Shown: one piece after another, positions 12,163 to 54,685 of the stretch
Layout: every line of letters begins with the position of its first letter
How positions within the stretch are numbered: the first letter of the stretch is position 1
IMG/VR virus record: IMGVR_UViG_3300032334_001433
Coordinates: 1-64,000 of that record
Strand: one strand, 5' to 3'
From: a virus
Length of the DNA stretch: 64,000 nucleotides
Position numbers and translations under genes: made by a program
The notes under the pieces: model-generated
Database searches by the model: none
The model's input: the letters and a program-made list of their open reading frames with translations, nothing else
Told to the model about the DNA's origin: nothing

Positions 12163-12510
12163 ATGTCGCATTTTGCAAAAGTAGAAGATGGTATTGTAAC
12201 ACAAGTAATCGTAGTAGAGCAAGACGTTATTAATACTGGTTTATTCGGAGACCCAGAATCTTGGGTACAAACATCATATAACACATACGGTGGCGAGCAT
12301 CGTAATGGTGGCACGCCTTTGCGTAAGAATTATGCAGGTATTGGTTACAGTTATGATTCTCAAAGAGACGCATTTATTGCACCAAAACCATTTGCAAGCT
12401 GGGTTCTAGATGAGAGCACTTGCATTTGGAACGCCCCTGTTACTATGCCTACAGAAGGTGGTCCTTACAGATGGGATGAGGAAACAGTTAATTGGGTAGC
12501 AGTTAGCTAA
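12163..12510 (+). CDS. Conserved phage virion-associated protein
   Basis: 115 residues starting MSHFAKVEDGIVTQVIVVEQ. The ATG at 12163 is preceded by AAGGAG, the only strong Shine-Dalgarno sequence in the adhesin array, and it excludes a longer frame from 12070 that overlaps the previous gene. The sequence (FGDPESWVQTSYNTYGGEHR, NYAGIGYSYD, PFASWVLDE) matches a small protein family found beside tail-fibre genes in many marine phages. Its molecular role is unknown; a small structural protein or fibre accessory is the best guess. Confidence 0.75.
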   Translation: MSHFAKVEDGIVTQVIVVEQDVINTGLFGDPESWVQTSYNTYGGEHRNGGTPLRKNYAGIGYSYDSQRDAFIAPKPFASWVLDESTCIWNAPVTMPTEGGPYRWDEETVNWVAVS

Positions 12511-12521
12511 AGAGAACGCAT

Positions 12522-12854
12522 ATGGCAATAACGTATAAAGTTTTGGGGCAAGCCGCCCCAGCTGCAACCACAAATACTGTACTATATACTGTACCTGCAT
12601 ATATGAGTGCGGCGACATCTACGTTATCCATATGCAATCAAAATGCTACCGATGCAAGATTTCGTGTAGCTGTACAGCCTGCAAATGCATCTATACAGTT
12701 TAAACATTATATTGCATATGATACAATTTTACCCGCATATGAAACCATTTCATTAACTATAGGGATGACATTGGCAACTACGGATGTAGTTACCGTGTAT
12801 GCAAACACAACAAATATTAGTTTTAATTTATTTGGGTCAGAGATTAATACATGA
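12522..12854 (+). CDS. Small beta-domain virion protein
   Basis: 110 residues, all one domain: ITYKVLGQAAPAATTNTVLY, TLSICNQNATDARFRVAVQP, then TTNISFNLFGSE. It is clearly paralogous to residues 1-112 of the gene at 10944, which carries a glycine-rich module behind the same domain. The free-standing form may occupy the same virion position. The stop overlaps the next start (ATGA at 12851-12854), so the two are translationally coupled. Confidence 0.78.
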   Translation: MAITYKVLGQAAPAATTNTVLYTVPAYMSAATSTLSICNQNATDARFRVAVQPANASIQFKHYIAYDTILPAYETISLTIGMTLATTDVVTVYANTTNISFNLFGSEINT

Positions 12855-46317: not shown

Positions 46318-46623
46318 TTATTGTGTATTCAAAACTGGCGAATACTCGGCAATCAGCGCTCGCTCTAAATTATGAGCAGGAGTCTTGCCACGAACAATCG
46401 CTAACTCTTGTGCTAGAAATGATTCAGCGCCAAACTCTCTGATTGCTTTACATAATGCCCAAGAACGATTCTCAGTACGAGCTCGTTGAATGTGCTTCAA
46501 TATACGAACACGTAAATCTTTCTTTCGAGATCCCTGCGTGATGCCAATGTAGAAATCACCAGTAACAGCATTTGTGATACTGTATACTATATGCTTTCGG
46601 TCAGAACGTTTCTTTCTCATCAT
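46318..46623 (-). CDS. GIY-YIG nuclease-domain protein
   Basis: 101 residues from the ATG pair at 46618-46623. It has a GIY-YIG-type core: HIVYSITNAVTGDFYIGITQ (the first tyrosine and YIG), R-x-x-x-H helices (RVRILKHIQRARTENRSW), and a terminal E in HNLERALIAEYSPVLNTQ. Single-domain members of this type occur in phages as homing or free-standing nucleases. Its promoter sits six bases upstream of the first ATG, so the mRNA should have no leader. A longer frame starting at 46662 would run through the promoter and is rejected. Confidence 0.75.
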   Translation of the reverse strand: MMRKKRSDRKHIVYSITNAVTGDFYIGITQGSRKKDLRVRILKHIQRARTENRSWALCKAIREFGAESFLAQELAIVRGKTPAHNLERALIAEYSPVLNTQ

Positions 46624-46629
46624 GTCGTT

Positions 46630-46658
46630 ATTATAGCACCTTTTGTCCATTGTGTCAA
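46630..46658 (-). promoter_or_regulatory. Sigma70-type promoter giving a leaderless mRNA
   Basis: Minus-strand TTGACA (46653-46658), 17-base spacer, TATAAT (46630-46635), then six bases to the ATG of the GIY-YIG gene. The usual start point falls on or next to the ATG. It is back-to-back with the rightward promoter at 46705. Confidence 0.82.
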
Positions 46659-46667
46659 GCATTTTTT

Positions 46668-46692
46668 AGTACCCATATGAGCAAAAGGGTCT
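46668..46692 (+). terminator. Cassette stem-loop between divergent promoters
   Basis: AGTACCC (46668-46674) can pair with GGGTCT (46687-46692), with one bulged T, and CTTTC follows. The same stem-loop precedes the promoters near 47442, 49542, 50518 and 52934. Termination is likely but the stem is short. Confidence 0.5.
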
Positions 46693-46704
46693 TTCAAAAA
46701 ATGC

Positions 46705-46733
46705 TTGACAAGAGCATCGAAAGGTGCTAAAAT
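46705..46733 (+). promoter_or_regulatory. Sigma70-type early promoter
   Basis: TTGACA (46705-46710), 17 bases, TAAAAT (46728-46733) with a TGC extended -10, then GAGGCTTAA as in the other cassettes. Drives the two-gene unit at 46762-47258. Confidence 0.8.
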
Positions 46734-46761
46734 AGAGGCTTAATTAATTAGAAAGTGTCTT

Positions 46762-47016
46762 ATGCGTAGAAAAGAAATTATCAAAGGCCTAAAGAACTCT
46801 ACTCGTTTTCGAGTGATGCTTAATGGCATTGGTCTTTATATGAGTATCAGCGACACTGAGAAGTGTTTCGCTACAAGTTCGCACAGAGTGGCGACACAAG
46901 TTGCGCTGCAGCAATTAGTTAAAGAGAAGACTACTGGTCTTGGCACCACAGTTAAAGTTTACAACGACAAGTTACAATCCGAATCAATTCAAGTACAGGT
47001 GGATATACTACAATGA
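46762..47016 (+). CDS. Hypothetical early protein
   Basis: 84 residues, basic N-terminus MRRKEIIKGLKNSTRFRVML then NGIGLYMSISDTEKCFATSS and a beta tail VKVYNDKLQSESIQVQVDIL. Not recognised. Transcribed from its own cassette promoter; the stop overlaps the next start by four bases. Confidence 0.62.
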   Translation: MRRKEIIKGLKNSTRFRVMLNGIGLYMSISDTEKCFATSSHRVATQVALQQLVKEKTTGLGTTVKVYNDKLQSESIQVQVDILQ

Positions 47017-49246: not shown

Positions 49247-49472
49247 AGATATTATTTGGATTGTTGCCGGAAATCGAGAGGAATTTCATTCGTATGTACG
49301 TCGCAAAATGCCATTAGGACATGATCCAAATAATTATAAGTTTGTATATTCTGTCGATCAATTGCGTGGATTAAATAGTATCAAAGGTTTCTATATTGGA
49401 AACTACAAATCAAGAAAAGATATTAATATTATTCAAGCAATTATTAATGTAATTAAACTTTCAGAAACTTAA
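49236..49472 (+). CDS. Hypothetical early protein
   Basis: 78 residues from the ATG at 49236 (MSHKDIIWIVAGNREEFHSY); a TTG six bases upstream is the alternative. VRRKMPLGHDPNNYKFVYSV, then DQLRGLNSIKGFYIGNYKSR: the pattern (I-W-I-V-A-G-N ... F-x-x-Y-V ... F-x-Y-V-x-x-x-D-x-L-R-G) is that of small alpha/beta phage proteins with a Rossmann-like strand. Last gene of its operon. Function unknown. Confidence 0.62.
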   Translation: MSHKDIIWIVAGNREEFHSYVRRKMPLGHDPNNYKFVYSVDQLRGLNSIKGFYIGNYKSRKDINIIQAIINVIKLSET

Positions 49473-52567: not shown

Positions 52568-52653
52568 TAGAAATACTAGTAATAATGATCGTTTCTTTGG
52601 CAATAAAGATAAGTATCGTATATACTATGAAATCAAGATATAGTAAGTATTGA
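52564..52653 (+). CDS. Tiny membrane peptide
   Basis: 29 residues, MIEILVIMIVSLAIKISIVY then TMKSRYSKY. A single hydrophobic helix with a basic end. It overlaps the previous tiny gene by ATGA and ends the operon. Together the two could form a two-component membrane pair; this is only inferred from the arrangement. Confidence 0.42.
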   Translation: MIEILVIMIVSLAIKISIVYTMKSRYSKY

Positions 52654-52661
52654 TCGAATAT

Positions 52662-52676
52662 TGCTATAATATAGCA
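52662..52676. repeat. 15-bp palindrome in the candidate origin region
   Basis: TGCTATA-A-TATAGCA is a perfect inverted repeat, 17 bases upstream of paired DnaA boxes. A+T-rich sequence surrounds it. Confidence 0.6.
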
Positions 52677-52692
52677 TATACTGTATATAGAC

Positions 52693-52712
52693 TGTGGATA
52701 ACCTGTGGATAG
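52693..52712 (-). promoter_or_regulatory. Paired DnaA boxes
   Basis: TGTGGATAA (52693-52701) is the exact complement of the consensus DnaA box TTATCCACA. Eleven bases on, TGTGGATAG (52704-52712) has one mismatch. The spacing equals one helical turn. They lie in the longest early gene-free gap with surrounding A+T-rich sequence and palindromes. Confidence 0.5.
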
Positions 52713-52856
52713 AGATCGCAGAGTTCTCTAAAATCGAGCCTAAAGAAAACTCTGTATTTATACGGTAGAACAATGGTTCAGATTCTATACGACCGTATCA
52801 GATTATAAACGGCAGAGTAATAATCTAAACTCGCGAGTCACCAAATAGATCTCTAT
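52709..52856 (-). ncRNA. Candidate multibranched structured RNA
   Basis: The gap between genes (52654-52988) holds no open frame but nested inverted repeats: an outer 9-bp pair ATAGAGATC (52709-52717) with GATCTCTAT (52848-52856), and inside it three hairpins. These are CAGAGTT/AACTCTG (52719-52725 with 52748-52754, extendable to 10 of 11 pairs), ATACGGT/ACCGTAT (52760-52766 with 52792-52798, with an inner GAAC/GTTC hairpin), and AGATTAT/ATAATCT (52800-52806 with 52820-52826). A leftward TTGACA-17-TATAGA promoter (52859-52887) would start transcription at about 52852, at the edge of the structure. Strand is inferred from that promoter. There is no clear terminator at the far end. Confidence 0.4.
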
Positions 52857-52858
52857 GT

Positions 52859-52887
52859 TCTATAACATCTTTTCCCTCCCCTGTCAA
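52859..52887 (-). promoter_or_regulatory. Candidate leftward promoter
   Basis: On the minus strand TTGACA (52882-52887), 17 bases, TATAGA (52859-52864). It lies in the dispersed repeat and has no leftward gene downstream, only the structured region. It is the left arm of a cassette whose right arm is the promoter at 52934. Confidence 0.5.
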
Positions 52888-52903
52888 CCTTTTTATAGTA
52901 CCC
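52864..52903 (+). repeat. Dispersed 39/40-bp repeat, copy 2
   Basis: Matches 49472-49510 from AACATC to AGTACCC with two substitutions and one extra T. In both places it directly precedes a stem-loop and a rightward early promoter. Confidence 0.85.
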
Positions 52904-52907
52904 ATAC

Positions 52908-52919
52908 ACCCTGCAGGGT
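52908..52919 (+). terminator. Cassette stem-loop
   Basis: ACCCTGCAGGGT is a perfect 12-base palindrome followed by CTTTAAA. An alternative pairing uses AGTACCC at 52897-52903 with GGGTCT, as in other cassettes. Terminator strength is uncertain. Confidence 0.5.
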
Positions 52920-52933
52920 CTTTAAACTAATGC

Positions 52934-52962
52934 TTGACGATCTGACCAAAAGGCGCTATAAT
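52934..52962 (+). promoter_or_regulatory. Sigma70-type early promoter
   Basis: TTGACG (52934-52939), 17 bases, TATAAT (52957-52962), leader AGAGGCATAAACAGTAAGGA. Drives the three genes at 52989-53685. Confidence 0.87.
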
Positions 52963-52988
52963 AGAGGCATAAACAGTAAGGAACTTAT

Positions 52989-53246
52989 ATGAACAGCAAA
53001 CAGATCGCAATGTATGGTATGACCGAAGCAGACATCAAAGCACAGTATATGGAGTCTATTACAGCAAAGTTCTCCGGTCTGGAGATGGTTGTAGCGGGCA
53101 TTCTAAGCGATTGTCAAGAGATGAATCAGTATCAGCACGCTGCAGCAGTGAATCAAGAAGCCAATAAAGAGCGGATTCGTCAGCAGTTGAACGTAGCAAA
53201 GTTCATTCTGTTCGATATGATGGATCAGCGTGGTCATAGCGTATAA
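52989..53246 (+). CDS. Hypothetical early protein
   Basis: 85 residues, helical: MNSKQIAMYGMTEADIKAQY, then EMVVAGILSDCQEMNQYQHA and KERIRQQLNVAKFILFDMMD. Similar short proteins with a (M/V)AGxLSDxQE ... R(Q)xLNxAKxxL helix pair occur in many phages. Function unknown. From here to about 55.2 kb the base composition is more G+C-rich than upstream. Confidence 0.66.
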   Translation: MNSKQIAMYGMTEADIKAQYMESITAKFSGLEMVVAGILSDCQEMNQYQHAAAVNQEANKERIRQQLNVAKFILFDMMDQRGHSV

Positions 53247-53685: not shown

Positions 53686-53708
53686 GACCCTACAGCCCAA
53701 AGGGTCTT
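53684..53708 (+). terminator. Cassette terminator
   Basis: AAGACCCT (53684-53691) pairs perfectly with AGGGTCTT (53701-53708) around a 9-nt loop, followed by TTGG. The first bases are in the stop codon of the upstream gene; the next -35 starts 12 bases later. Confidence 0.7.
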
Positions 53709-53719
53709 TTGGAAAGTGC

Positions 53720-53748
53720 TTGACGATCTGACCAAAAGGTGCTATAAT
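53720..53748 (+). promoter_or_regulatory. Sigma70-type early promoter
   Basis: TTGACG (53720-53725), 17 bases, TATAAT (53743-53748), leader TGAGGCATAAACAGCAACAG. Drives the AAA ATPase gene alone. Confidence 0.87.
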
Positions 53749-53776
53749 TGAGGCATAAACAGCAACAGAGGTGTAT

Positions 53777-54685
53777 ATGAAAGTAGCAGTCAAATTCAAC
53801 AAAGCAAAGAATCGTTTCGAAGGATTCGTGGATGGCAAAATGGTAACACGTTCAAAGCATGAGATGTACGTCAAGAACGTTCTAGCTAGCATGGGTCTAG
53901 AGGTCGAAGAGTCCACAGGTCTCGTGAACAATCAGCCCAAGATTGACGAGTTTGGCATCAATAAGCGCTTTGAGTTCGTTCAGCAGATGGTCACAATGGT
54001 TGGTAAGAAGACTATTGCCTCAGCGATCATCACAGGTCAGGGTGGTCTGGGTAAGACGCACACAGTGTTGAAGTCGCTCAAGGCTCAGGGCTTGATCGAT
54101 ACTACAGACCTCGCCTCGTTCGAAGAGGGTTACAAGTTTAACTCTTCGAAGTCTTATCGTGTTGTCAAAGGTTACAGCACAGCAAAAGGTCTCTATCGTA
54201 CGTTGTTCGAGGGTAACGGACAAGTGCTCGTGTTCGACGACTGCGACAGTGTTCTCAAAGATCCCGTAGCGTTGAACTTGCTCAAGGGTGCCCTGGACTC
54301 TTACGGTGAGCGCTGGATCTCCTGGAACGCAGACATGAAAGACGAAGATCTGCCCCGTTCCTTCAAGTTCACAGGTTCCATTGTGTTCATCAGCAACATG
54401 GACGCTGATCGTATAGACCAAGCAGTGAAGACACGCGCTATGTGCGTTGACTTGTCCATGACACAGATGCAGAAGCTAGAGCGCATGGAAGTGATCATGA
54501 AAGAAGACGAATTCCTGCCTGAGTACAGCATTAATTTTAAGCAAGACGCTTTGAATTTGCTTAAAGAAGTAGCAAATACAGTAGACAATCTGTCTCTGCG
54601 TTCGTTGATTGCGGTGACGAAGATTCGCGCTGAGAATGAGAACTGGAAAGATCTGGCTCGTTACATCGTCAGTGCCGGGGCGTAA
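53777..54685 (+). CDS. AAA+ family ATPase
   Basis: 302 residues from the ATG at 53777 (AGAGG five bases upstream; a GTG at 53771 is the alternative). Walker A is GQGGLGKT (87-94), Walker B is VLVFDDCD (D154/D155), and sensor 1 is in GSIVFISNMD. A conserved Arg sits in TRAMCVDLSM. The N-terminal 50 residues (VKFNKAKNRFEGFVDGKMVT) form a small separate domain. Relatives are common single-domain phage ATPases of unknown role, possibly loading or remodelling factors in replication. It is the only gene of its transcript and is richer in G+C than its neighbours. Confidence 0.8.
   Translation: MKVAVKFNKAKNRFEGFVDGKMVTRSKHEMYVKNVLASMGLEVEESTGLVNNQPKIDEFGINKRFEFVQQMVTMVGKKTIASAIITGQGGLGKTHTVLKSLKAQGLIDTTDLASFEEGYKFNSSKSYRVVKGYSTAKGLYRTLFEGNGQVLVFDDCDSVLKDPVALNLLKGALDSYGERWISWNADMKDEDLPRSFKFTGSIVFISNMDADRIDQAVKTRAMCVDLSMTQMQKLERMEVIMKEDEFLPEYSINFKQDALNLLKEVANTVDNLSLRSLIAVTKIRAENENWKDLARYIVSAGA

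Follow-up and report, generated by a model that had tools for sequence, protein, structure and literature searches.

Our analysis points to the gap at positions 52654-52988 as a cis element with DnaA boxes, resembling a replication origin, in a T4-type phage; we give this reading about even chances. The gap belongs to a virus record of 202,665 bases, of which a 64-kb stretch (the window) was analysed. Judged from the sequence, the anatomy of the element is clear, in that a sigma-70-type promoter on the minus strand is followed, reading leftward, by a poorly conserved interior, an invariant 11-nt box and a tandem pair of DnaA boxes. Equally apparent are its conservation in related phages, the single occurrence of its boxes in the record and the T4-type replisome genes that the same phage carries.

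No DNA similarity to named phages was found among 50,697 phage records, either for the gap region in a distant mode of search or for bases 40000-64000 in a near mode. Small plus-strand open reading frames (ORFs) to the left of the gap end at 52653, and to the right it is bounded by an 85-aa early-region gene on the plus strand (52989..53246). This gene belongs to no PHROG and has 0 matches among the 50,697 phage records; it has 45 related loci in viral contigs. The initial annotation had stated that no gene lies leftward of the gap, and indeed the minus strand is free of likely genes down to 46662, as checked with ORFs of at least 80 aa, the overlapping minus-strand ORFs in between being judged spurious. 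A small protein encoded in the gap itself was considered and set aside, the structured segment described below being overlapped only by ORFs of 20-46 aa. Farther to the right, at 53777-54682, the window encodes a 302-aa protein of phrog_1250, whose function is unassigned and whose relatives occur in 1233 phage records, many of them in enterobacterial and Vibrio phages; a GxGKT-like loop was spotted in this protein by eye.

At the left of the element lie two predicted DnaA boxes, its strongest feature and one that the initial annotation did not include, both on the minus strand, in the same orientation and 11 bp apart. Box 1 (TTATCCACA, 52693..52701) is of the oriC R1-R4 type, for which the available text of a published study gives a DnaA KD of ~1e-9 M (PMC5835720), and it is present as a single copy in the 202,665-base record. 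From base composition we estimate that an exact TTATCCACA would be expected once or twice in the record, so the single copy alone proves little. Box 2 (CTATCCACA, 52704..52712) reaches into the left closing-stem arm of the structured segment (52709-52717), such that the pair as a whole overlaps and abuts this arm. The window has two boxes only, one carrying a mismatch, which counts against the origin reading; the position of box 2 reads TTATCCACA in two relatives, L012 and L052. Of 13 records, 7 have the pair pattern TATCCACNGGTTATCC, each as a single copy, compared with 0 of 13 for a control with the letters reversed; the other six, records of 143-354 kb that have the 85-aa gene, are without the box pair, a further point against that reading. 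Of 54 neighbourhood loci, 6 (in 3 contigs) have the pair, where 0.05 would be expected by chance. The pair is shown by six of the 45 loci of the 85-aa gene (L009, L010, L011, L012, L013 and L052), most of the neighbourhoods without it spanning just ~5 kb per side.

The tandem arrangement is also found well outside this group, in at least 120 viral-contig stretches against 0 for the same letters reversed, and of 119 viral pairs among the matches listed 25 fall within ORFs of at least 100 aa, versus 72% of random positions. At least 116 bacterial stretches carry the tandem pair, and 31 of those among the matches listed encode a DnaA C-terminal signature, where we estimate, from stretch length over genome size, that well under one would be expected. 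Being conserved, clustered and of consensus type, the boxes are probably DnaA-binding sites. A phage-encoded DnaA was rejected, no such gene having been found in the phage record. Variants of the arrangement were also seen: at ~3375-3425 of L011 there are three GTGGATAA repeats instead of two, an enlarged box array, and a search of distant relatives for looser box pairs gave one more, the close box-like pair TATCCACAGTATACAC at 130059-130074 of a 354-kb relative (G010).

Next to the boxes, on the minus strand, is the 11-nt box TAGGCTCGATT (52732..52742), a candidate binding or priming site that occurs once in the whole record. The order of DnaA pair, TAGGCTCGATT, 120-150 nt and leftward promoter is common to five distinct phages, namely the window, L009, L011, L012 and L052. 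In leftward reading this corresponds to TTGACAG...GATGTTA with a 17-nt spacer, 120-150 nt, TAGGCTCGATT, and then TATCCAC(A/C)GGTTATCCAC. Identical contigs were each counted once (L009/L056, L011/L059, L012/L062, L052/L060 and L013/L061), and L013, being nearly a copy of L011, was omitted. Across the alignment of the five phages, invariant columns amount to 18/30 in the promoter, 11/11 in TAGGCTCGATT and 17/20 in the DnaA pair, with 22/102 in the interior, which is largely unalignable in L011, L012 and L052. These three are the more distant relatives; L009 is the sole close one, its gap having 88.9% identity, with indels, to that of the window, and most of the flanking pieces 93-96%. What evolution retains, going by these alignments, is the layout of promoter and boxes rather than the fold of the segment between them.

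The right neighbour gene of the element varies between phages and the element is nevertheless retained, which fits an independent cis element. L010, which stands outside the five-phage alignment, has the box pair and TAGGCTCGATT in a different gap, where no leftward promoter was recognised next to them, and this counts against the origin reading. The pattern with TAGGCTCGATT matched 13 stretches, comprising the five known contigs, L301 (the L010 contig), and L300 together with L302-L307; the last seven have no tandem pair and were rejected as relatives, their matches being taken as chance. Two candidates for further close relatives, L298 and L299, were reached through an interior 17-mer and discarded as unrelated sequence.

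The minus-strand promoter proposed in the initial annotation is strongly supported; its position is right, and its -35, spacer and -10 are all good. It is a TTGACA-17-TATAGA sequence at 52859..52887, with its -35 at 52887-52882, its -10 at 52864-52859 and a 17-nt spacer, and the -10 is of the extended type (TGTTATA); the RNA start predicted near 52852 agrees with this position. Our promoter scan skipped it because the scan demands the final T of the -10, which is absent from TATAGA. The promoter is kept with an identical 17-nt spacer in 5/5 distinct phages having the full element. An identical promoter type also precedes minus-strand genes within the window, and the type is found as well in gaps without DnaA boxes; it is thus not specific to the element and may not serve an origin.

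To the right of this promoter lie the parts of a recurring intergenic cassette. The palindrome ACCCTGCAGGGT followed by CTTT (52908..52919) is a weak terminator-like part, unscored by the terminator scan, and the cassette that holds it is repeated at 53688-53765. The rightward promoter of the cassette, TTGACG-17-TATAAT on the plus strand (52934..52962), matches the consensus at 11/12 positions, stands before the 85-aa gene and has seven more similar places in the record. Copies of the cassette (a terminator-like palindrome plus TTGAC-17-TATAAT), placed ahead of early genes, lie at 46653, 47439, 49470, 50005, 50480, 52902 and 53681 and at record position 165387. In the copy at 49470 and in relatives, a leftward promoter-like sequence points at the 3' end of the gene before, an orientation that suggests antisense transcription. 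With composition corrected for, the window folds most strongly at 46601-46773, a segment of high rank on each strand; here two similar early promoters diverge, with a minus-strand gene on one side and a plus-strand gene on the other. A further strong fold, again on both strands, is found at 12501-12648, at the junction of two plus-strand genes, and is perhaps a terminator.

In L011, L012 and L052 the zone beside the leftward promoter contains 50-bp stretches of 84-90% AT, a content equalled by 0.02-0.16% of windows in these loci, and this fits an unwinding element. The best 50-bp stretch is 70% AT in the window and 68% in L009, which is not markedly AT-rich and counts against the origin reading. 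The promoter is shared by all five phages, and a clear adjoining AT-rich zone is confined to the three more distant ones, and in the window the structured segment occupies the place of that zone. GC skew across the 64-kb window shows no switch at the ~52.7 kb element, the nearest being at ~46-47 kb, and this absence counts against the origin reading. The phage encodes a family-B polymerase, a DnaB-type helicase (DnaB_C) and a gp59-type loader (gp59 C-terminal domain); among named phages, it is Synechococcus phages that match the polymerase best (~51%). Possession of its own replisome counts against the origin reading, and T4 itself is not known to need DnaA. No gp59 was found in the records of six relatives, which are fragments and hence uninformative on this point.

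The initial annotation had seen in the segment 52709..52856 of the minus strand a candidate multibranched noncoding RNA of 148 nt. Its 9-bp closing pair is present, with arms ATAGAGATC (52709-52717) and GATCTCTAT (52848-52856), as is the reverse-strand TATAAATA at 52755-52762. The nested helices that it described are recovered; the three separate hairpins are not found with minus-strand RNA energies, which give two arms (one long branched arm and one hairpin), and are approximated with DNA energies, which give about three hairpins on either strand. For the minus strand the folding energy is -44.0 kcal/mol, where its shuffles average -29.5 (z -4.06) and 0/200 of them are as good; the plus strand folds less well (z -2.75). 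Once composition was regressed out, the minus strand (z -3.41) took 8th place and the plus strand 126th place among 5112 folds, the ranking set being 148-nt windows over 64 kb on both strands with an unoptimised grid phase, whereas the tested segment was picked by its stem. DNA energies score both strands similarly (z -3.06 and -2.85), and the fold by itself thus does not indicate RNA. A known RNA family or tRNA was rejected, given that no part of the window matches Rfam at the gathering score (a relaxed threshold brings up three matches in the gap, all at chance level) and that it has no tRNA call, the latter in keeping with the earlier remark that the segment fits no tRNA pattern. On the minus strand the terminator scan detected no intrinsic terminator after the closing stem. 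The sequence at the predicted leftward RNA start, GATCTATTT, matches the initial nine letters of a 13-mer of E. coli oriC; this resemblance was dropped, as the match is not kept in L009.

Comparison with relatives weakens the proposal of a stand-alone RNA. In L009, 0 of the 53 pairs are changed on both sides, 8 are broken and 4 show one-sided changes to or from G-U, a comparison of low power in which just two sequences, the window and L009, can be aligned through the fold; when the window structure is placed on both, 92.4% of cells are standard pairs. The RNA fold of L009 itself has a similar shape and a z of -2.01 (-0.04 with DNA energies), and at the same position in L011, L012 and L052 the folds are like those of shuffles (z -0.59, -0.66 and +0.49). 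The fold is partly kept between the two close relatives, and selection on pairing is without support. We consequently regard a discrete leftward small RNA of ~148 nt, in which the fold would be the function, as decidedly unlikely, since the strong fold, the good and conserved promoter and the similar shape in L009 are set against broken pairs with no compensatory change, a gap that is conserved less than most of its flanks, three distant relatives with no stable fold, and the lack of both a terminator behind the stem and an Rfam family.

The DnaA-box evidence on which the origin reading rests would also serve for a decoy or regulator that is not an origin, with boxes that titrate host DnaA or steer local transcription or DNA entry, DnaA acting on the leftward transcript as a roadblock or repressor being one form of this. 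The boxes do follow a conserved promoter, at ~130-170 nt downstream, and in T5 a region that has both DnaA boxes and inverted repeats was put forward, in the part of the report available to us, as an injection stop signal (PMC13250531), which makes a non-replication role a real rival. We nonetheless consider this unlikely, because two boxes in 202 kb are few for titrating the DnaA of a host with hundreds, the count given for E. coli in the accessible text being 307 consensus DnaA boxes (PMC5835720), and because the AT-rich zone and the 11-nt box TAGGCTCGATT are left unexplained. It seems to us very unlikely that the gap is simply another copy of the divergent-promoter cassette, with an antisense promoter directed against the preceding genes and DnaA-like boxes that are incidental. 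The cassette is found in many gaps, with its leftward promoter often aimed at the end of the gene before; however, the exact DnaA box and TAGGCTCGATT occur just here in the record, outside the cassette, and both have been retained by 5 distinct phages in which the intervening sequence has not.

If the gap is indeed an origin-like element, the leftward sigma-70-type promoter would transcribe an unwinding-prone zone, AT-rich in three relatives and hairpin-rich in the window phage and L009, toward TAGGCTCGATT and the tandem DnaA boxes. Host DnaA at the boxes would help to open the DNA or to keep it open, and the leftward transcript, held as an R-loop, would provide both the primer and a landing site for the phage polymerase and the gp59-loaded helicase, a mode of priming that would resemble T4 oriF. 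What the initial annotation took for a folded RNA may then be this leftward transcript or, in the same sequence, the displaced strand. DnaA binding at the element is probable but, like R-loop formation and origin firing, inferred. A more specific version, which we offer tentatively as possible though doubtful, is a hybrid origin in which host DnaA at the box pair and a dedicated leftward transcript together license R-loop-primed initiation, and in which one lineage has replaced the AT-rich zone by a hairpin-rich one, where a folded displaced strand or RNA would stabilise the open origin.

The origins of T4 have no common local motif, which makes the origins of T4-type phages hard to spot from sequence. 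If the origin-like reading is correct, DnaA boxes, an invariant 11-nt box and a promoter would make those of this group recognisable, and whether phages that own a replisome still draw on host DnaA would become testable. Our findings also highlight how a good promoter next to a sequence with a strong fold score of its own can lead one astray if no relatives are compared.

DnaA boxes in phage non-coding DNA are already known, from T5 and from predicted origins elsewhere; the literature covered by our search, as far as its accessible text goes, yielded no DnaA-box origin in a T4-type phage. T5 (L310), a virulent phage, has two exact TTATCCACA boxes in its non-coding terminal-repeat DNA, flanked by divergent promoters that are annotated as putative. 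Its boxes are 73 bp apart and not an 11-bp tandem pair, the phage is unrelated, and the match covers the box half of our query alone and not the 11-nt box TAGGCTCGATT. This box-bearing stretch would appear to be the proposed injection-stop region, so far as the available description of the latter allows the two to be equated (PMC13250531). In the Pseudomonas phage vB_PseuGesM_254, an origin with DnaA boxes and an AT-containing region was predicted by Ori-Finder, according to the text available (PMC11512268); it is a prediction only, a CtrA motif and a GATC region are named there, and the likeness is drawn from that description. Bacterial oriC clusters have the same box sequence and tandem spacing, whereas the element here has two boxes only, in a record without a detected DnaA gene.

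The closest functional parallel that we draw is with T4 oriF and oriG, whose minimal sequence of ~100 bp is described as a promoter with a downstream unwinding element, the oriF transcript forming an R-loop that primes synthesis (PMC3016281, as far as its accessible text goes). The element described here is likewise small, with a promoter followed by a putative unwinding zone, in a phage with a family-B polymerase, a DnaB-type helicase and a gp59 loader. The T4 sites are R-loop origins, while the R-loop here is putative, and they use MotA middle promoters in the account available, in contrast to the full TTGACA/extended -10 promoter of our element. Finally, whereas that account gives the T4 origins no common local sequence motif, DnaA boxes and an invariant 11-nt box are present here.
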